A DNA stretch of 64,000 bases, taken from assembly GCF_001051995.2 (NCBI RefSeq), contig NZ_CP014646.1:124001-188000 (forward strand), given 5' to 3'. The DNA comes from Thauera humireducens. Lineage in GTDB: Bacteria > Pseudomonadota > Gammaproteobacteria > Burkholderiales > Rhodocyclaceae. Below are positions 1,513 through 22,099 of this stretch, one piece after another. The first letter of the stretch is position 1. Each line of letters begins with the position of its first letter. The notes beneath the pieces were generated by a model. It ran no database searches and had not been told where the DNA came from. It saw only the letters and a program-made list of their open reading frames with translations. The position numbers and the translations under genes are program-made.

Positions 1513-2469
1513 GTGAATGAACGCGCTGATTATATAGCAGGCGACGAGTCCGACCCGCCTGCCGTGATTACGATTCCTGCCGAGCTTGGCGGGCTGCGGC
1601 TCGACCAGGCGCTGGCCCGGCTGTTTCCCCAGCATTCTCGCAGCCGACTGCAGGGCTGGCTCAAGGACGGGCGTATCCGGCTCGACGGCGCTTCAGCCGG
1701 CTCGCGCCAGAAGGTGAGCGGCGGCGAGCGCGTCGAAGTCGATGCTGCGCCCCCGCCCGAGATTGCCGCCGAGCAGCCCGAGGACATCCCGCTGAAGATC
1801 GTGTTCGAGGACGCGCACCTGCTGGTGATCGACAAGCCCCCCGGGCTGGTCGTGCATCCCGGCAGCGGCAACTGGAGCGGGACGCTGCTCAATGCGCTGC
1901 TGCATCACGCGCCGCAGGTTGCGGAAGTGCCGCGTGCCGGCATCGTGCATCGTCTCGACAAGGACACCAGCGGCCTGCTGGTGGTGGCCAAGACGCTGAC
2001 GGCGCAGACCGATCTTGTGCGCCAGCTTCAGGCCCGCACGGTCCGACGCCATTACTGGGCGCTGGCCCAGGGGCGGGTGCCGGCCGGCGGCACCGTCGAT
2101 GCCCCGATCGGGCGCCATCCGACGCAGCGCACGAAGATGGCCGTGGTCGGCAACGGCCGCCCGGCGGTGACGCATTACGCGGTGGTCGAGCGCTTCGAGC
2201 GTGCGACGCTGCTCGAGTGCCGGCTGGAAACGGGGCGCACGCACCAGATCCGCGTGCATATGGCGCACATCGGTCATCCGCTGGTCGGCGACCCAGTGTA
2301 TGCCGCACGCCGGGTCGCAGAACCCGCCTGGGCGGACTTCGAGCGCCAGGCCTTGCATGCTTTCCGGCTCGGCCTGGTTCATCCGGCCACGGGCGAAGCG
2401 ATGGAGTGGGAGATTCCGATGGCAGCGGATTTCGATGCGTTGCTGCTGCGGTTGAGGTCGGTGCGATGA
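1513..2469 (+). CDS. rluD: 23S rRNA pseudouridine(1911/1915/1917) synthase RluD
   Basis: RluD converts three uridines of helix 69 in 23S rRNA to pseudouridine, supporting 50S assembly. An S4 RNA-binding domain occupies about residues 25-85 (GGLRLDQALARLFPQHSRSR). The catalytic domain carries the family motif GIVHRLDKDTSGLLVVAK with the nucleophilic Asp at about residue 149, and the downstream LETGRTHQIRVHM motif. The length of 318 residues fits E. coli RluD (326). The start is uncertain: GTG codons at 1486, 1513 and 1564 are in frame and none has a good ribosome binding site. The stop overlaps the start of pgeF. Confidence 0.93.
   Translation: MNERADYIAGDESDPPAVITIPAELGGLRLDQALARLFPQHSRSRLQGWLKDGRIRLDGASAGSRQKVSGGERVEVDAAPPPEIAAEQPEDIPLKIVFEDAHLLVIDKPPGLVVHPGSGNWSGTLLNALLHHAPQVAEVPRAGIVHRLDKDTSGLLVVAKTLTAQTDLVRQLQARTVRRHYWALAQGRVPAGGTVDAPIGRHPTQRTKMAVVGNGRPAVTHYAVVERFERATLLECRLETGRTHQIRVHMAHIGHPLVGDPVYAARRVAEPAWADFERQALHAFRLGLVHPATGEAMEWEIPMAADFDALLLRLRSVR
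1529..1534 (-). promoter_or_regulatory. Candidate minus-10 box for bamD
   Basis: The minus strand reads TATAAT here, about 30 bases before the bamD start. The region 17 bases further upstream has no good minus-35 match, so this is only a partial promoter call. It lies inside the 5' end of rluD if the upstream rluD start is used. Confidence 0.35.
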
Positions 2470-3206
2470 CACAGGGCGCCGGCTTCATCGTGCCTGACTG
2501 GTCCGTGCCGATGGGCGTGCGGACGCTGGTCACCACGCGTGCTGGTGGCGTCAGCCTGCCACCCTACGCCAGCTTCAATCTCGGCGACCATGTCGGCGAT
2601 GATCCGGCCGCCGTAGCGCAAAATCGCGCACGTTTGCGTGCCTGCCTGCCGACGGAGCCGACGTGGCTCGCCCAGGTGCACGGCATCGTCGTGGCGGACG
2701 CCGATCAAGCCTCCGGCGTGCCGGAAGCCGATGCGGTCGTGGCGCGAGGGCAGGGGGCGGTGTGCGCAGTGTTGACGGCAGATTGCCTGCCGGTGCTGCT
2801 GTGCGACGACGATGGCTCGGTGGTGGCCGCCGCGCATGCGGGCTGGCGGGGGTTGGTGGCCGGCGTGCTGGAAGCGACGGTTGCACGCATGGCGGTTGCG
2901 CCGTCCTCGATCCGTGCCTGGCTGGGGCCGGCGATCGGCCAGGGAGCCTTCGAGGTGGGTGACGAGGTGCGCCAGGCGTTCGTCACCGCTGATCCGGGAG
3001 CGGCTGCAGCTTTCGTGCCCGGTGCGGTGCAGGGTAAATGGATGGCCGACCTCTTCCTGCTCGCGCGGCGACGGCTGTCGCAGGCAGGTGTGCATCGTGT
3101 CGAGGGCGGAGGCATATGCACCTACACGGATGCCGCGCGCTTCTACTCCTACCGCCGCGACGGCCGCACCGGACGCTTCGCCTCGTTGATCTGGATCGAA
3201 TCCTGA
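2466..3206 (+). CDS. pgeF: Peptidoglycan editing factor / purine nucleoside phosphorylase-like YfiH
   Basis: YfiH/PgeF proteins are zinc enzymes first called multicopper oxidases or laccases. In E. coli PgeF keeps peptidoglycan precursors free of L-Ser, and homologues have purine nucleoside phosphorylase/adenosine deaminase activity. The 246-residue protein has the full zinc site: His42 (NLGDHVGD), Cys107 (TADCLPV) and His124 (AAAHAGWRG). The ATG overlaps the rluD stop (ATGA), which implies translational coupling. rluD-pgeF is a conserved pair across proteobacteria. Confidence 0.92.
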   Translation: MTQGAGFIVPDWSVPMGVRTLVTTRAGGVSLPPYASFNLGDHVGDDPAAVAQNRARLRACLPTEPTWLAQVHGIVVADADQASGVPEADAVVARGQGAVCAVLTADCLPVLLCDDDGSVVAAAHAGWRGLVAGVLEATVARMAVAPSSIRAWLGPAIGQGAFEVGDEVRQAFVTADPGAAAAFVPGAVQGKWMADLFLLARRRLSQAGVHRVEGGGICTYTDAARFYSYRRDGRTGRFASLIWIES

Positions 3207-3263
3207 TGCGGCCTGCGGCCTCGAGGCCTGGAACGCCCGACCGGGGCAATGGCAGGCGTTTCG

Positions 3264-3479
3264 CTATTGATCGGCGTCCGATTCACCTCTATCGTTGAGG
3301 CCGCCTGCTTCCCGTTCGCGCTGCCGGCGACGCCTGGCGGGGGTGCCGAACAGCCAGAAGAACAGGGCCATCGGAGCGATCCCGTAAAAAATGAAGGTGA
3401 GTACGCCGCCGACGACCGTATTTTCGGAGATGGCGGCGAGCAGCGCGACGTAGAGCCAGGCGATTGCGATCAAATACAT
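3264..3479 (-). CDS. Small two-helix inner membrane protein, unknown function
   Basis: A 71-residue protein starting MYLIAIAWLYVALLAAISEN. It has two clear hydrophobic helices (about residues 1-18 and 23-46), the second rich in aromatic residues, then a basic stretch (RRRRQRER) and an acidic tail. This suggests a helical hairpin with both charged ends in the cytoplasm. I do not recognise a family. The gene is divergent from phaC, and its end lies 57 bases beyond the convergent pgeF stop. Support comes from hydrophobic pattern and position only; no Shine-Dalgarno sequence was confirmed. Confidence 0.6.
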   Translation of the reverse strand: MYLIAIAWLYVALLAAISENTVVGGVLTFIFYGIAPMALFFWLFGTPARRRRQREREAGGLNDRGESDADQ

Positions 3480-3574
3480 GCCGTCGATTCTAAGCCCGTC
3501 GGGTGCCGGGCGAGGGCTGAAAAACGGAAAATCCGGGCGCTGGCCTTGCGTCGCGCCGTAAACAGGAGACAGGG

Positions 3575-5320
3575 ATGTCGGATTCGGAAGGCAGGCAGGA
3601 GAACCCGGGCGTGCAGGCCATGCTCGCCGCCGGTCAGGCGATGGCGCAGCAGTTCTTTGATGCGCTGGCGCGCCAGCATGTCGCCATGCAGGATTCGTCG
3701 GGACTTGCCGCACCCAAGCTGCCCATGCCCGAGACGGAGGCATTCGCGAAGCTGCAGAAGGACTTTGCCGAGAAGCATGCCGCGCTGTGGTCCGCGATGC
3801 TGGGGCGAAAGCAGGGGGCTGCAGGCGAGCCGGTCGTGCAGCCCGAACCGGGCGATCGCCGTTTTTCCGCGCCCGAGTGGTCCGAGAGCCCGGTGTTCGA
3901 CTACATCCGCCAGGCCTACCTGCTCAACGCGGGTTTCCTGAAGGACGTTGCCGAGGCGCTGCCGATGGCCGACGGGCGAGCCAAGTCCCGGCTGCAGTTC
4001 CTCACCCGGCAGTACATCGACGCGCTGGCGCCGACCAACTTCGCGGCGACCAATCCCGAGTTCATCAAGACGGCCATCGAGACCAAGGGCGAGAGCATCA
4101 CGCGCGGCGTGCGCAACATGCTCGGCGACCTTGAAAAGGGCCGGATCTCGATGACCGACGATAGCGCGTTCGAAGTCGGGCGCAACCTCGCGCTGACGCC
4201 GGGCGCGGTGATCTTCGAGAACGAGCTGATGCAGCTGATCCAGTACGCGCCGCTGACCGACAAGGTCGCGCAGGTGCCGCTGCTGATCGTTCCGCCCTGC
4301 ATCAACAAGTTCTACATCATGGATCTCCAGCCGGAGAACTCCCTGGTGCGCTTCATCGTGGAGCAAGGGTTCACGGTCTTCCTCGTGTCGTGGAAGAACC
4401 CTCGCGCCGACAGCGACGGCCACCATACCTGGGACGACTATCTCGACAAGGGGCCGCTGAAGGCGCTCGAGGTCGTGCGTTCGGTGACCCGCGTGAAGAA
4501 GCCCAGTGTCCTCGGTTTCTGCGTGGGCGGCACGATGCTGACTTCGGCGCTGGCGGTCGCGCGCGCGCGCGGCGAGGAGCCGGTGGCCAGTCTCACGCTG
4601 ATGACGACGCTGCTGGACTTTGCCGATGCCGGCGAGATTGGCTGCCTTGTGGACGAGGCCAGCGTTGCCGCACGCGAGGCTGCGATTGGCAAGGGCGGCG
4701 TGCTGCGCGGCCAGGAACTTGCGAACGTGTTCTCGTCACTGCGCGCGAACGACCTCGTGTGGCAATACGTGGTGGGCAACTACCTCAAGGGCAACACGCC
4801 GCAGGCCTTCGACCTGCTGTACTGGAACTCGGATTCGACCAATCTGCCGGGCCCCTTCCTGACCTGGTACCTGCGCAACATGTACCTCGAGAACAACCTG
4901 CGCGTGCCGGGCAAGCTCAAGATGCTGGGCGAGAAGATCGATCTCGCCAAGGTCGACATGCCTGCATACCTGATGGCGGCGCGCGAGGATCACATCGTGC
5001 CGTGGAAGAGCGCCTACCTCGCCCGCAACCTGCTGGGCGGGGAAACGACCTTCGCGCTGGGGGCCAGCGGACATATCGCCGGTGCGATCAATCCGGCCTC
5101 GAAGAACCGTCGCAGCTTCTGGACGGCTGACGTGAAGGCGACCGACCCGGACGAGTGGCTCGAGCAGGCGAACGAGCACAAGGGCAGTTGGTGGTTGCAC
5201 TGGATCGAATGGCTGCGTCAGTATGGCGGCAAGCAGGTTGCCGCGCGCGGCCGGCTCGGCAGCACGAAGTACGAGCCGGTCGAGCCTGCGCCGGGGCGCT
5301 ATGTGAAGGAGCGTGCCTGA
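3575..5320 (+). CDS. phaC: Class I poly(3-hydroxyalkanoate) polymerase PhaC
   Basis: PhaC polymerises short-chain (R)-3-hydroxyacyl-CoA, mainly 3-hydroxybutyryl-CoA, into storage polyester on cytoplasmic granules. The 581-residue length is typical of class I synthases. The alpha/beta-hydrolase domain has the lipase-like box GFCVGG with catalytic Cys316, Asp472 (AREDHIVPWKSAYL) and His500 (ASGHIAGAINP). The N-terminal 200 residues match the PhaC N domain. ATG has a good Shine-Dalgarno (AGGAGA) five bases upstream. It heads phaC-phaB-phaB-phaR. phaA (beta-ketothiolase) is missing from the cluster, so acetoacetyl-CoA must come from a ketothiolase encoded elsewhere. Confidence 0.97.
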   Translation: MSDSEGRQENPGVQAMLAAGQAMAQQFFDALARQHVAMQDSSGLAAPKLPMPETEAFAKLQKDFAEKHAALWSAMLGRKQGAAGEPVVQPEPGDRRFSAPEWSESPVFDYIRQAYLLNAGFLKDVAEALPMADGRAKSRLQFLTRQYIDALAPTNFAATNPEFIKTAIETKGESITRGVRNMLGDLEKGRISMTDDSAFEVGRNLALTPGAVIFENELMQLIQYAPLTDKVAQVPLLIVPPCINKFYIMDLQPENSLVRFIVEQGFTVFLVSWKNPRADSDGHHTWDDYLDKGPLKALEVVRSVTRVKKPSVLGFCVGGTMLTSALAVARARGEEPVASLTLMTTLLDFADAGEIGCLVDEASVAAREAAIGKGGVLRGQELANVFSSLRANDLVWQYVVGNYLKGNTPQAFDLLYWNSDSTNLPGPFLTWYLRNMYLENNLRVPGKLKMLGEKIDLAKVDMPAYLMAAREDHIVPWKSAYLARNLLGGETTFALGASGHIAGAINPASKNRRSFWTADVKATDPDEWLEQANEHKGSWWLHWIEWLRQYGGKQVAARGRLGSTKYEPVEPAPGRYVKERA

Positions 5321-11828: not shown

Positions 11829-11904
<76 letters not shown>

Positions 11905-11933
11905 AATCGAAGTTGTGGTTGTTGCAGTACGTA

Positions 11934-12009
11934 GTCCCCATCGTCTAGAGGCCTAGGACACCGCCCTTTCACGGCGATAACCGGGGTTCGAATCCCCGTG
12001 GGGACGCCA
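11934..12009 (+). tRNA. tRNA-Glu (TTC), copy 1
   Basis: A 76-base tRNA with encoded CCA. Acceptor GTCCCCA pairs with TGGGGAC, the anticodon loop CTTTCAC gives anticodon TTC, and the T arm is CCGGGGTTCGAATCCCCG. Confidence 0.97.
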
Positions 12010-12076
12010 ATTCAAGGCGTTTTAGCCTGGATGGGCTGGAATGCAGGGCCGGCAGAACGTCGGTGCAGTTTGGTGC

Positions 12077-12153
12077 GGAGTGGTAGTTCAGTTGGTTAGA
12101 ATACCGGCCTGTCACGCCGGGGGTCGCGGGTTCGAGTCCCGTCCACTCCGCCA
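12077..12153 (+). tRNA. tRNA-Asp (GTC), copy 1
   Basis: A 77-base tRNA with encoded CCA. Acceptor GGAGTGG pairs with CCACTCC, the anticodon loop CTGTCAC gives anticodon GTC, and the T loop is TTCGAGT. Confidence 0.97.
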
Positions 12154-12202
12154 GTTTTAAGTCGGGCCATGCTCAAAGTCTGATCTTCATAGGCCGAAGA
12201 TC

Positions 12203-12231
12203 TTGCTGAAAGCGTCAGTGGTGGCTATAAT
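12203..12231 (+). promoter_or_regulatory. Sigma-70 promoter of the second tRNA triplet
   Basis: TTGCTG (12203-12208) and TATAAT (12226-12231), 17-base spacing, placed just upstream of the second tRNA-Ala. The duplicated unit therefore does not depend on the first promoter. Confidence 0.8.
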
Positions 12232-12245
12232 CGCCGGCTCGTTGT

Positions 12246-12321
<76 letters not shown>

Positions 12322-12343
12322 AGGGTTTTAAAGCAGTACCGCA

Positions 12344-12419
12344 GTCCCCATCGTCTAGAGGCCTAGGACACCGCCCTTTCACGGCGATAACCGGGGTTCG
12401 AATCCCCGTGGGGACGCCA
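12344..12419 (+). tRNA. tRNA-Glu (TTC), copy 2
   Basis: Identical to the copy at 11934-12009: 76 bases, anticodon TTC, CCA encoded. It is 22 bases after tRNA-Ala copy 2. Confidence 0.97.
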
Positions 12420-12480
12420 ACATCGCAGTCTGGCGTAGCCAGATTGCAGTGCCGGAGATATCCGGCGGCAGGTTCGGTGC

Positions 12481-12557
12481 GGAGTGGTAGTTCAGTTGGT
12501 TAGAATACCGGCCTGTCACGCCGGGGGTCGCGGGTTCGAGTCCCGTCCACTCCGCCA
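12481..12557 (+). tRNA. tRNA-Asp (GTC), copy 2
   Basis: Identical to the copy at 12077-12153: 77 bases, anticodon GTC, CCA encoded. A strong terminator follows directly. Confidence 0.97.
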
Positions 12558-16887: not shown

Positions 16888-18567
16888 GTGGAAAAGATCT
16901 GGCTGCAAAGCTATCCGAAGGGCGTACCGGCTGAGATTGACGTCGATCAGTTCAAGTCGATCGGTGACCTTTTCGAGCAGGGGGTCGCGCGCTTCGGTTC
17001 GCGCACGGCCTACGTGTGCATGGGCAAGGGCATCACCTACGGCGAACTCGACGAGTTGTCGCGTCGTTTCGCCGCGTATCTTCAGGGTGAGCTGAAACTT
17101 CCCCGCGGTGCGCGCGTGGCGTTGATGATGCCCAACGTGCTGCAGTATCCGGTTGCCCTGTTCGGCACGCTCCGCGCCGGCTACACCGTCGTGAACGTCA
17201 ATCCGCTCTACACGGCGCGCGAGCTCGAGCATCAGCTGTGCGACGCCGGCGCCGACGTGGTCGTCATCCTCGAGAACTTCGCCCACACGCTCGAGCAGGT
17301 GCGGGGCCGGGTGCCGATCAAGCATGTCGTCGTCAGTAGCCTGGGCGAGATGCTGGGGTTTCCGAAGTCTGCGCTGGTCAACTTCGTCGTCCGGCGGATC
17401 AAGAAGATGGTGCCGGCCTGGAAGCTCGATGGGGCGATCACCTTTGCGGCGGCACTGGCGCGCGGCGATCGCCATCGTCTCCAGGCCGTGGAGATCGGCC
17501 ATGAGGACATCGCCTTCCTGCAATACACGGGCGGCACCACCGGCGTGGCCAAGGGCGCCATCCTCACCCACCGCAACATCATCGCCAACCTGCAGCAGGC
17601 TCATGCCTGGATCAAGCCGTTCGTGCGCGAAGGCGAGGAACTGATCATCACGGCGCTGCCGCTCTATCACATCTTCTCGCTCACGGCGAATTGCCTGACC
17701 TTCTTCAAGATCGGTGCGACGAACGTGCTGATCACCAATCCGCGCGACATTCCCGGTTTCGTCAAGGAACTGTCAAAGCACAGGTTCACCGCCATCACCG
17801 GTGTCAATACGCTGTTCAACGCGCTGCTCAACAATCCGGATTTCGGCAAGCTCGATTTCTCGAGTCTGCATGTGGCGCTGGGGGGTGGCATGGCGGTGCA
17901 ACAGGCCGTTGCCGAGAAATGGCGGAAGGTGACGGGCATTCCGCTGGTCGAGGCCTACGGGCTCACGGAGACGTCCCCGGCCGTCACGATCAACCCGCTC
18001 GATCTGCCCGAGTTCAACCACTCGATCGGCTTGCCGGTTTCGTCAACCGACATCAGCCTGCGTGATGATGCCGACAACGAGGTGCCGGTCGGACAGCGCG
18101 GCGAGCTCTGCGTGAAGGGCCCACAGGTGACGCGGGGCTACTGGAATCGTCCGGACGATTCGGCGCGGGCATTCACGCCGGATGGCTTCCTGCGCACGGG
18201 GGACATCGCGGTCATCGACGAGAAGGGCTTCGTCTCCATCGTTGACCGGAAGAAGGACATGATTCTGGTGTCGGGCTTCAATGTCTATCCCAACGAGGTC
18301 GAAGACGTGGTCGCCAGTCACCCCGGCGTGATCGAGGTCGCTGCGGTCGGCGTGCCGGACGAGCGCAGTGGCGAGGCGGTGAAGATCTTCGTGGTGCGCA
18401 AGGATCCTGCGTTGACCGAAGCGGCGTTGATCGCCTATTGCCACGAGAATCTGACGGGCTACAAGGTGCCGCACCGCGTCGAGTTCCGCGATGAACTGCC
18501 CAAGAGCAATGTGGGCAAGATCCTGCGGCGCGAGTTGCGCGAGGGGCCGGTGAGACAAGACGCGTGA
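16888..18567 (+). CDS. fadD: Long-chain fatty acid-CoA ligase
   Basis: Activates free fatty acids to acyl-CoA with ATP, giving an acyl-AMP intermediate, for beta-oxidation. The 559-residue AMP-forming enzyme has the P-loop [16 protein letters not shown], the A5 region [16 protein letters not shown], the hinge [13 protein letters not shown], and the C-terminal catalytic lysine in [13 protein letters not shown]. The GTG start has a perfect AAGGAGG seven bases upstream. A 225-base gap separates it from the CBS gene; I see no clear promoter there. No transporter or acyl-CoA dehydrogenase is adjacent. Confidence 0.93.
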
Positions 18568-18599
18568 TCGCGTGATCGCATCAGGAATGCACGGGGTGC

Positions 18600-18628
18600 T
18601 TGTGTAGGCGGCAGTTTCGTGCTTTCAT
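18600..18628 (+). promoter_or_regulatory. Weak candidate promoter of the ilv leader
   Basis: TTGTGT (18600-18605) and TTTCAT (18623-18628), 17-base spacing. The predicted start near 18635 would place the leader peptide about 20 bases into the transcript. Confidence 0.3.
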
Positions 18629-18655
18629 CTCTCCCGCAATTCATTTCGAGCCATC

Positions 18656-18733
18656 ATGCGTTCTTCCACCCGTTTCTTCGCCGTCGTTTCCGTAGCTGTA
18701 CGCGTAGTAGGCGTAGGCATGCGCGCGTCGTAA
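18656..18733 (+). CDS. Valine-rich ilvBN leader peptide (ivbL-like)
   Basis: A 25-residue open reading frame starting MRSSTRFFAVVSVAVRVVGV and ending GMRAS-stop. Seven of its 25 codons are valine, clustered within residues 10-20, and it contains no isoleucine or leucine. The pattern resembles the E. coli ivbL leader, whose core is a run of valines broken by one arginine. It ends 30 bases before an intrinsic terminator in front of acetolactate synthase genes. Such peptides sense charged tRNA: a ribosome stalled at Val codons favours an antiterminator. No strong ribosome binding site is visible upstream, and expression is inferred from context. Confidence 0.75.
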   Translation: MRSSTRFFAVVSVAVRVVGVGMRAS

Positions 18734-18763
18734 CGGGACAGAACACTCGAACAGCAGGATTCC

Positions 18764-18800
18764 AAACCCCCGTCGGCGCGCAAGCCCGGCGGGGGTTTTT
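18764..18800 (+). terminator. Attenuator terminator before ilvB
   Basis: Perfect 9-bp outer stem AAACCCCCG (18764-18772) with CGGGGGTTT (18790-18798), ending in five T. It sits between the valine-rich leader peptide and ilvB. An alternative pairing is visible: GCGCGC (18721-18726) and ACGGG (18733-18737) can pair in nested order with GCGCGC (18776-18781) and CCCGT (18769-18773). That would consume the 5' arm of the terminator and act as antiterminator. The 5' half of this pairing overlaps the end of the leader peptide, as attenuation requires. Confidence 0.8.
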
Positions 18801-18854
18801 GCATTCTGGGGCCGCGCCGGTGATGTCGCTGAAGTCAAAACCAAGGAGAGCATC

Positions 18855-20522
18855 ATGACTCAACTCACCGGCGCGCAACTGATCGTGCGCCTCCTCGAAC
18901 GCCAGGGCGTGCGTACCATCGCCGGCATCCCCGGTGGCGCGATTCTTCCGTTCTACGACGCGCTGTCGGCCAGTGCGCAGATCCGGCACGTGCTGGCGCG
19001 CCACGAGCAGGGCGCTGGCTTCATGGCGCAGGGCATGGCGCGGGTGTCGGGCGTGCCCCAGGTGTGCATCGCCTCGAGCGGTCCGGGGGCGACCAACCTC
19101 GTCACCGCGATTGCCGATGCCTGCCTCGATTCGATTCCGATGGTCATCATCACCGGCCAGGTGCCGCAATCCATGATCGGGACCGACGCCTTCCAGGAAG
19201 TGGATATCTACGGCATCACGGTGCCGATCACCAAGCACAATTTCCTTGTGCGCTCGGCGCAGGAGTTGCTCGAGGTCGTGCCCGACGCGTTCCGCATCGC
19301 CATGTCCGGCCGACCGGGTCCGGTGCTGATCGATGTGCCCAAGGATGTGCAGAACCAGCTGATCGAAGTCGACGAACTGCCGCCGCCCGCAGTGCCCGAC
19401 GCGCCGCCGCAGCTGGACATGGCGGCCATCGATACCGCAGCGCAGATGATCAACTCGGCCGTGCGACCGGTGCTCTATCTGGGCGGCGGTGTGGTCCATT
19501 CCGGTGCTTCCGCACTCGCGGTGACGCTGGCAGAGCAGGGCGCGCTGCCGACGACGATGACCCTGATGGCGCTGGGTGCGATGCCGATGGACCATCCGCT
19601 GTCGGTCGGCATGCTCGGCATGCACGGTGCCCGCTACACCAACTTCGTGCTCGAGGAGGCGGACCTGCTGATCTGCGTCGGTGCGCGCTTCGACGACCGC
19701 GCCATCGGCCGGGCCGCCCAGTTCTGCCCCAACGCGAAGATCGTCCACATCGACGTTGATCGCTCCGAGTTGCACAAGATCAAGACCGCGCACGTCGCGA
19801 TTCATGCCGATGTCACGGAGGCGCTCGAGGCCCTGCTGCCCCGTGTCAAGGCCGTGCTGCGCACCGACTGGCTGGCGCAGGTCGCGGATCTCAAGCAGCG
19901 GTTTCCGATGCAGCTCCCGGGCAGCGACGATCCGCGCAGTCACTACGGCCTGATCAAGGCGGTCGCCGACGCGCTCGACGACGAGGCGGTGGTTGCCACC
20001 GACGTGGGTCAGCACCAGATGTGGGTCGCTCAGGCCTATCCTTTCCGCCGTCCGCGCCAGTGGTTGACCTCGGGCGGGCTGGGCACGATGGGATTCGGCC
20101 TGCCGACGGCAATCGGCGCCGCCCTGGCCGAGCCCGAGCGCACGGTGGTGTGCTTCTCGGGCGACGGCAGCTTCAAGATGAACATCCAGGAGCTTGCGAC
20201 ACTGGCCGAGGAGGGGCTCAACCTCAAGGTCGTGCTCATGAACAACAATGCGCTGGGTCTGGTGTACCAGCAGCAGGCGCTGTTCTACGGCAAGCGCCAG
20301 TTCGCGTCCAGGTACCGCACCGAACCCGATTTCGTGAAGATCGCCGAAGGCTTCGGCGTGCCGGCCATCGACCTCGACAAGGCCGACGATCCCCGTGCCG
20401 CGCTGGCCGAGGCGCTGAATGCGCCCGGACCGTGCCTGATCCACGCGACGATCGATCGCGAGCAGTTTGTCTATCCCATGGTGCCGCCGGGTGCCGCCAA
20501 CACCGAAATGATCGGAGGCTGA
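18855..20522 (+). CDS. ilvB: Acetolactate (acetohydroxyacid) synthase large subunit
   Basis: Thiamine-diphosphate enzyme that makes 2-acetolactate and 2-aceto-2-hydroxybutyrate, the first shared step of Val, Leu and Ile synthesis. The 555 residues carry the cofactor-activating Glu in [17 protein letters not shown], the FAD region, and the C-terminal ThDP/Mg motif [20 protein letters not shown]...NNNALGLV. The small partner is short (IlvN type) and the leader peptide is ivbL-like, so this resembles E. coli isozyme I (IlvBN) rather than IlvIH. There is no ilvC alongside. The TGA stop overlaps the ilvN start. Confidence 0.93.
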
Positions 20523-20839
20523 TGATGATCGAACAAGTTGCCGACCCGCTGCCGCAAGCCGGCCACGCAAAGGTCATTCTAGAGATCGATGTGAATAACC
20601 ACGCCGGGGTGATGAGCCACATCTGCAATCTTTTTGCGCGCCGCGCCTTCAACGTCGAAGGCATTCTGTGCATGCCGGTTTCCGACGGCAGGCGCTCGCG
20701 CATCTGGCTGCTCGTGTTCGACGACCAGCGCCTCGAGCAGATGGTCCGCCAGGTTGAAAAGCTGGAGGACGTGCTCGCGGTGCGTCGCCATGGGGCGGAG
20801 CACGAAGTGTTCGAACGCCTGGAAGACTTCTTCCACTGA
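20522..20839 (+). CDS. ilvN: Acetolactate synthase small regulatory subunit
   Basis: A 105-residue ACT-domain protein ([20 protein letters not shown], then [20 protein letters not shown]). It activates the large subunit and gives valine feedback inhibition. The short length matches E. coli IlvN (96) and not IlvH (163). The start is ATG 20522 in TGATG overlap with the ilvB stop, or ATG 20525 directly after it; either way translation is coupled. Confidence 0.92.
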
Positions 20840-20968: not shown

Positions 20969-22099
20969 ATGTCCGGAAACACCATCGGTACCCTATTCAC
21001 CGTCACGTCCTTTGGCGAGTCGCACGGCCCGGCGATCGGCTGCGTCGTCGATGGCTGCCCGCCGGGACTGGCACTGACAGCGGCTGACATCCAGATCGAA
21101 CTGGATCGGCGCAAGCCCGGCACCTCCCGTCACGTGACCCAGCGTCGCGAGCCCGACGAGGTCGAGATCCTGTCCGGGGTATTCGAGGGCGTGACCACCG
21201 GTACGCCGATCGCACTGCTGATTCGCAACCAGGACCAGCGCAGCAAGGACTACGGCAACATCGCCGATACCTTCCGCCCGGGACACGCCGATTACCCCTA
21301 TTGGCAGAAGTACGGCATCCGCGACTACCGTGGCGGCGGCCGTTCTTCGGCGCGCGAGACCGCAGTGCGCGTGGCGGCAGGTGCGATCGCGAAGAAATGG
21401 CTGCATGAGCGCTACGGTATCGTGATCCGGGCCTGCATGACGGCGCTCGGGCCGATCGAGATCCCGTTCATGTCGTGGGACGAGGTCGATCGCAATCCCT
21501 TCTTCGCGCCCAACGCCGATATCGTGCCGCAACTCGAGACCTACATGGACGAACTGCGCAAGTCCGGCGACTCGATCGGTGCGCGCATCGACGTGGTGGC
21601 CAGCGGCGTGCCCGTGGGCTGGGGCGAGCCGGTGTATGGCCGCCTGGATGCCGACATCGCCTACGCGATGATGGGCATCAATGCAGTGAAGGGCGTCGAG
21701 ATCGGCGCGGGGTTTGCCTCCGTTGCGCAGCGTGGCACCGAGCATGGTGACGAGATGACGCCGGAAGGCTTCCTGTCGAACAATGCGGGTGGCGTGCTTG
21801 GCGGCATCTCCACCGGCCAGGACGTCATCGCCAGCATCGCGATCAAGCCGACCTCGAGCATCCGCCTCGATCGGCGCTCCATCGACCGTGCAGGCAACCC
21901 GGTCATCGTCAACACCCACGGTCGCCACGATCCCTGCGTCGGCATCCGTGCGACACCGATCGCCGAGTCCATGCTCGCACTGGTGCTGATCGATCACGCG
22001 CTGCGTCATCGCGCCCAGTGCGGCGACGTCCGCACCGACACGCCGCGCATTGCCGGGCTCGCGCCACTGGGACAGCAGCGCCTGCCGTCGCCGCGCTGA
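20969..22099 (+). CDS. aroC: Chorismate synthase
   Basis: Converts 5-enolpyruvylshikimate-3-phosphate to chorismate with reduced FMN, the last step of the shikimate pathway. The 376-residue protein starts [18 protein letters not shown] and has the family signatures [16 protein letters not shown] and [19 protein letters not shown]. The extreme C-terminus ([11 protein letters not shown]) runs on slightly past the conserved end. Its substrate is made by AroA, encoded 37 kb away in this window. Confidence 0.96.

Follow-up and report, generated by a model that had tools for sequence, protein, structure and literature searches.

A predicted ivbL-type transcription attenuator upstream of ilvBN in Thauera humireducens

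Ribosome-mediated attenuation is a textbook mechanism, and the system closest to the one described here is the ivbL-ilvBN leader of the Enterobacteriaceae; in E. coli, ilvBN has long been known to be controlled in this way (PMC6123439). The attenuators of ilvGMEDA, leu, his and trp likewise combine a leader carrying cognate codons with a terminator and an antiterminator (PMC1183508 and PMC6123439), and they differ from the present locus in the amino acids sensed and in the operons controlled. For the Corynebacterium ilvBNC uORF (ilvB-II motif) and for the ilvB-OMG motif, PMC10272879 reports a uORF rich in branched-chain amino acids and proposes attenuation before ilvB; these motifs occur in different bacteria, and no Rfam family reaches threshold in the DNA analyzed here. 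No publication among the matches listed in our literature search describes an element of this kind in the family to which T. humireducens belongs; Vitreschak 2004 and Lopatovskaya 2010 may mention the lineage. A query combining Rhodocyclaceae and leader peptide returned no publication, and the main text of PMC2965389 contains no word beginning with ilv.

The window, i.e. the whole stretch of 64,000 nucleotides of T. humireducens DNA that was analyzed, contains a leader region that shares with the enterobacterial ivbL-ilvBN system the ilvB gene downstream, a Val run broken by Arg, a strand 2 lying over the last codons and the stop codon, and a CCCCGCCGG-type terminator. In contrast to enterobacterial ivbL, the window leader ends in RAS rather than GNAP and contains no Leu, and the Val codons of the family leaders are mostly GTA, whereas the enteric ones are GTG or GTC. 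An enteric-like GNAP C-terminus is present in some family leaders (L131, L140, L145, L147 and L150). The features computed for this locus, namely the leader ORF, the terminator, the antiterminator complementarity, their conservation and the homology with ivbL at the RNA level, indicate that ilvBN is very probably governed by a ribosome-mediated transcription attenuator that is a homologue of enterobacterial ivbL.

Organization of the ilvBN leader region

The features of the locus are collected in Table 1. Direct reading of the DNA reproduced to the base the valine-rich frame of the initial annotation, which had described 25 codons with seven Val in 11 codons and neither Ile nor Leu. The frame starts after a spacer of 88 nt from the fadD-like gene, carries Val at codons 10, 11, 13, 15, 17, 18 and 20, and terminates with TAA at 18731-18733. 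The window has 519 short ORFs of 11-60 aa, of which the leader alone contains at least six Val per 11 codons, and seven Val per 11 codons were found in none of the 34,815 open segments obtained from 20 base-shuffled windows. Because this Val density is unmatched both in the ORFs of the window and in the shuffles, the leader frame is not considered a chance frame. No clear Shine-Dalgarno sequence was seen by eye before the leader ORF in an alignment of 22 hand-picked loci. The ORF located 3' of ilvN presumably resembles aroC.

Table 1. Features of the ilvBN leader region and its neighbors in the window
Feature	Position	Strand	Basis
fadD-like long-chain fatty-acid CoA ligase gene, upstream	16888..18567	+	ORF list, family search
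Candidate -35, TTGTGT, weak match	18600..18605	+	alignment of 22 hand-picked loci
Candidate -10, TTTCAT, 17 nt past -35	18623..18628	+	alignment; weak in window
Leader peptide ORF MRSSTRFFAVVSVAVRVVGVGMRAS, 25 codons, ATG...TAA	18656..18733	+	sequence, relatives, composition
Control codons, 7 Val (5 as GTA) within 11 codons	18683..18715	+	codon count
Strand 1, ACGCG, inside Val-Arg-Val codons	18700..18704	+	RNAalifold, single-sequence fold
Strand 2, GCGCGUCG + bulged UA + ACGGG, antiterminator 5' arm	18723..18737	+	
Strand 3, partner of strand 2 (antiterminator) or strand 4 (terminator)	18769..18781	+	
Intrinsic terminator (predicted), hairpin 18767-18795 and U-run 18796-18800	18767..18800	+	folding, script, covariation
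ilvB ribosome binding site, AAGGAGA	18843..18849	+	by eye
ilvB, acetolactate synthase large subunit	18855..20522	+	NCBIfam PRK08155, TIGR00118
ilvN, acetolactate synthase small subunit, start approximate	20522..20839	+	PRK08178
Next ORF 3' of ilvN	20969-22099		

The intrinsic terminator that had been proposed at 18764-18800 ahead of ilvB could also be recognized, since a hairpin (AAACCCCCGUCGGCGCGCAAGCCCGGCGGGGGUUUUU) followed by a U-run is present at that place, before the ilvB start at 18855. The core stem (18767-18795) has a calculated energy of -24.9 kcal/mol, and the fold of 18650-18805 is better than those of shuffled sequences (z -2.4), 3 of 200 shuffles being equally good. The locus thus has the predicted intrinsic terminator between the leader and the first gene that an attenuator requires. 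The stem covaries in alignment A1 (36 of 68 non-redundant loci out of 80 with a terminator, hand-picked, chiefly for a stop codon within strand 2), where 97.2% of the cells are paired and three pairs account for 13 cells with both sides changed, compared with a shuffled mean of 3.5 such cells.

A candidate promoter precedes the leader. At the place of the -35 hexamer, CTTG is kept in most of the 22 hand-picked loci, and most of these share a -10-like hexamer upstream of the leader, which in some of them reads TAGAAT, TATAAT or TTAAAT; in the window, 27 nt separate the candidate -10 from the leader start codon. A simple consensus scan of the window reported neither a promoter nor a terminator before ilvB.

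Conservation in the family and the control codons

IlvB was searched in 150 genomes of the same family, that of T. humireducens included, drawn evenly from a larger group, and orthologues of at least 61% identity were found at 75 places in 74 genomes. When the upstream DNA was inspected at all 75 loci, a Val-rich leader frame (at least four Val in 12 codons) was present at 73 of them, 72-226 nt from leader end to aligned ilvB start; the two loci lacking it were L155 (in G136) and L157 (the second copy in G141). A script found the terminator at 70 of the 73 leader loci, and at the remaining three (L089, L117 and L160) inspection by eye showed a hairpin, the U-run being poor in L089 and L117. 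The V-R-V motif occurs in 59 of the 73 leaders. The two nearest named non-enteric relatives, Accumulibacter and Tepidiphilus, agree with the lineage suggested in the initial annotation. The second acetolactate synthase of the own genome (L002) has no such leader. Conservation of the Val codons and of the stems in relatives, which had been suggested as a check, came out in favor of the attenuator. Such control, which the initial annotation would not have expected by default in this lineage, is usual in the family.

The pattern of change within the leader suggests that the ORF is translated. In A1, each of the 56 gaps that interrupt the coding part has a length divisible by three, although the rows are related and these are not 56 independent events, and the gaps 3' of the leader stop are mostly of 1 or 2 nt. 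Conservation of the peptide lies in the Val core and the codons that form strand 2, and the N-terminus is variable. The RAS, HAS or NAP with which many of the peptides end may be kept for their bases, which belong to strand 2, and not for their residues. Two smaller alignments, A2 and A3, comprised 30 of the A1 loci and 21 loci, respectively. The 32 loci outside the alignments were still used for terminator detection and for strand 2/strand 3 pairing, and the family members among them were also counted in the codon, Leu/Ile, shuffle and leader/terminator tallies.

Judged by its codons, the window leader would sense Val. The proposal that tRNA-Val charging alone is read thus agrees with the codons of this leader, but it does not extend to the family, where 69 of the 73 leaders carry Leu or Ile and four lack both (the leader start being taken as the nearest in-frame ATG where present). 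Leu or Ile lies inside the Val core itself at 42 loci, the other 31 cores having none, and E. coli ivbL is said to sense Val and Leu. These counts speak for multivalent control, i.e. that the family attenuator senses chiefly Val but also Leu or Ile, the Val-only leader of the window being one state of drift, which would refine the attenuator reading and not replace it. Against this, the window leader has neither residue, and the cores contain on average 7.2 Val but 0.84 Leu and 0.11 Ile (29, 7.5 and 2.4%, respectively, of all residues in the family leaders); we regard multivalent control as a serious possibility with the balance tilted slightly against it.

The choice of Val codon in these leaders departs from that in ilvB. 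GTA makes up 59% of the 618 Val codons in the family leaders, compared with 2% of 1,662 in the ilvB stretches, which cover only the gene start for 45 of the 75 loci, and with 5 of 287 (1.7%) in ten hand-picked ORFs of the window; GTA is the rarest Val codon both in the ilvB stretches and in these ten window genes. It accounts for at least 40% of the leader Val codons at 57 of the 73 loci, the lowest share being 12.5%, compared with 3% of 65 Val codons in seven enteric leaders. An anticodon scan of the own genome (30 loci, in 18 stretches plus the window cluster, from 59 tRNA matches) gave one tRNA-Val with anticodon UAC, one with GAC and two with CAC. The cluster in the window (11829-12554), in which Ala-GGC, Asp-GTC and Glu-TTC were found, has an apparently repeated order.

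An argument has been made that control codons are shaped by the selective charging of tRNA isoacceptors (PMC1183508). A tentative and rather doubtful explanation of the GTA bias is that the old ivbL switch has been retuned in this family so as to respond to just one tRNA, and the switch would then report charging of the tRNA-Val(UAC) isoacceptor. A structural cause appears equally likely from folding calculations, namely that GTA prevents base pairing between the Val run and the arm of the terminator, an effect with a median of 5.2 kcal/mol. From the 70 family loci that have a terminator, 39 were selected according to their C-terminus; when their Val run was recoded with ilvB usage, pairing with strand 3 became stronger at 36 of the 39 (mean, from -14.3 to -19.4 kcal/mol), although replacing A by G or C raises pairing anyway and the enteric leaders tolerate GTG. 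The use of GTA in one group and of GTG or GTC in the other, in homologous attenuators, offers a natural comparison of control-codon choice.

Competing hairpins and the proposed mechanism

Strand 2 begins with the final eight coding bases, runs through the stop codon and extends 4 nt past it, and it could form 13 pairs with the 5' arm of the terminator, the UA of the stop codon being bulged. The resulting strand 2/strand 3 duplex has a calculated energy of -24.8 kcal/mol in the window. In RNAalifold, strands 1 and 2 share three pairs (18701-18703 with 18725-18727). The antiterminator that excludes the terminator, as required of an attenuator, is indicated by this complementarity together with the changes between terminator classes presented below, and per-locus shuffles were modestly exceeded.

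Rarer terminator classes show matching changes in strand 2. In the lineages whose terminator is CCCUCCGGAG or CCCUCCGGC, strand 2 reads CCGGAGGG or GCCGGAGGG, in frame and upstream of the stop codon, and where strand 3 contains CGGUGC, strand 2 usually contains GCACCG. On the arms UCCGGA, UCCGGC and GCCGGU, the native strands 2 reach -23.1, -22.0 and -21.1 kcal/mol, and foreign ones are weaker (-17.1, -14.5 and -18.0 kcal/mol, respectively). The reverse swap gives weaker evidence, with strands 2 of the UCCGGA and UCCGGC classes reaching -21.1 and -21.3 on ordinary arms, and the arm of L107 is bound more stably by foreign strands 2 (-25.2) than by the native one (-22.3). Over all 80 loci, the mean was -22.5 for native and -20.6 for swapped combinations.

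At the level of the single locus, strand 2/strand 3 pairing is modestly above GC-matched chance. At least 10 pairs are formed at 54 of the 70 loci and in 31% of dinucleotide shuffles, and at least seven pairs at 69 of the 70 loci and in 74% of the shuffles. Only 18 of the 70 loci beat 95% of their shuffles, and the window, where 21% of the shuffles fold as well, is not one of them. Since GC-rich sequence pairs readily, single-locus shuffles were dropped as a proof of the antiterminator. In A1, its paired cells are far above those of slid partners (81.5% versus at most 49.8%), and the excess over shuffled sequences is small, both in paired cells (79.5% when shuffled) and in cells with both sides changed (8 versus 5.1) and covariation score (0.088 versus 0.076). 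No excess over shuffles was observed in A1 either in pairs with both sides changed (4 versus 2.9) or in further pair types (10 versus 9.8).

The predicted folds depend on how much of the RNA is available. If the RNA is folded from 18720 only as far as 18785, which represents a ribosome waiting on the Val codons, the antiterminator is predicted (-23.9), and when the RNA from 18720 is extended to 18800 with strand 2 free, the minimum-energy fold is the terminator (-33.4). Because the full-length minimum-energy fold is the terminator, antitermination must be kinetic, with timing deciding the outcome, as it is in the known attenuators.

These elements suggest the following mechanism. When Val-tRNA is ample, a ribosome translating the leader would reach the stop codon and cover strand 2, so that strands 3 and 4 would form the terminator and transcription would end near 18800. 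With Val-tRNA in short supply, the ribosome would stall on the Val codons and leave strand 2 free to pair with strand 3, which would block the terminator and allow transcription of ilvBN; the supply of valine would thereby control ilvBN. Without a stalled ribosome, strand 1 may pair with strand 2.

Relationship to ivbL and distribution in other lineages

The relationship with ivbL was addressed with two RNA models. R1 includes window, enteric and family sequences among its rows, and R2 was built from 21 family sequences without the genus of the window and without enterics; because R1 holds enteric and family rows, only R2 is independent of the enterics. Run against the window together with 68 loci out of the 80, R2 recovered the window at 18692-18799 (E 1.8e-20) and all seven enteric ivbL attenuators (E 2.5e-12 to 2.3e-10). 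The parallel with E. coli ivbL-ilvBN drawn in the initial annotation is thus borne out in a stronger form, as the comparison points to homology of the window element with the E. coli ivbL-ilvBN attenuator at the RNA level. The window peptide matched no family at E up to 10 when compared with Pfam PF08049 (IlvB_leader) and NCBIfam PRK10214, and the family leader at L131 gave E 0.0033 and 0.0013, respectively, below the cut-offs. Since there is no match to a peptide profile, it is the RNA element that we call homologous, and the peptide is not filed in PF08049 or PRK10214.

R2 also matched loci with labels of other groups, i.e. L017 (Opitutaceae; E 5.8e-7), which has a Val-rich leader, L032 (Myxococcales; 2326-2423; E 1.2e-5), L038 (Fibrobacteres; 2347-2452; E 0.003) and L060 (Breznakibacter; 2174-2278; E 0.057). 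At L060, L038 and L032, where the R2 matches are weak to moderate, a Val-rich leader and a terminator-like hairpin were observed before acetolactate synthase genes. Other R2 matches in the window and the 68 loci had E values of at least 0.007. L029 (E 0.007) has neither an ilvG-type nor a Val-rich leader at the expected place, and the weak matches L066, L031, L024 and L033 (E 0.029-0.047) have leaders that we take to be ilvG-type.

Within the class, 10 of 369 genomes besides the own one have an IlvB orthologue with an E value of at most 1e-180, and an R1 match lies directly upstream at nine of these 10 orthologues outside the family; at L266, the tenth, there is a leader that contains Val, together with a hairpin that lacks a U-run. 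R1 matched 22 of the 369 genomes at E 0.001 or lower, one being the own genome, in which nothing better than E 0.02 was found beyond the window locus, itself a row of R1. Eleven of the class matches precede ilvB, nine at orthologues of 56-70% identity and two (L175 and L179) at genes of 43-47%, and the match at L177 precedes a transporter. Nine further matches have no Val leader, look like chance terminators and were discarded. Control of the ivbL type would extend past the enterics; in one family of other Proteobacteria it would apply to the majority of the ilvBN loci that were found, and elsewhere to scattered loci, those labelled Opitutaceae (L017), Myxococcales (L032) and Fibrobacteres (L038), and the RNA models supplied could be used to annotate ivbL-type attenuators.

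This distribution bears on another explanation, in which the hairpin just ends transcription of the fadD-like gene upstream and the ORF is a chance frame. The hairpin does lie about 200 nt past the fadD-like stop, and GC-rich DNA yields many open frames, but the Val content was not reached in shuffles, a promoter-like site separates the fadD-like gene from the leader, and conservation extends jointly over the leader, strand 2 and the terminator, also at ilvB in other families and phyla; this explanation is close to refuted and was set aside as very improbable. That the leader peptide additionally acts in trans as a small protein has a reported precedent in peTrpL (PMC7298713), but it would hardly be expected when conservation concentrates on the Val core and the strand 2 codons while the N-terminus varies. 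The least credible alternative, that a ligand- or tRNA-binding riboswitch (a T-box or another Rfam class) and not translation controls this terminator ahead of a biosynthetic gene, was set aside because no family of Rfam release 15 reaches its gathering score at 17500-20000 and because the conservation of the codons and the gaps that keep the frame speak for translation. The Rfam matches at E up to 1 in this region, ncr1175 and sR28, were both far below gathering score, and a scan of eight related loci gave one match at gathering score, RF02744 at L033, an ilvG-type locus.

On the minus strand of L198 (G510:C182:1-7000), at about 2335-3730, a Val leader of the ivbL type (MNLLMTGSSINSILCVIAVVVVSVVVRVRLSP) stands with a terminator before a gene for a Bcr/CflA-type MFS transporter instead of ilvB. 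The genome concerned is 92% complete, and no IlvB match in it exceeds 44%. Four further genomes of the family carry the leader before ilvB (L199-L202), and in a fifth (L203) the end of the contig is reached; the remaining five matches of that search have no Val leader. At L198, either ilvB has been lost or the switch has been captured by the transporter.
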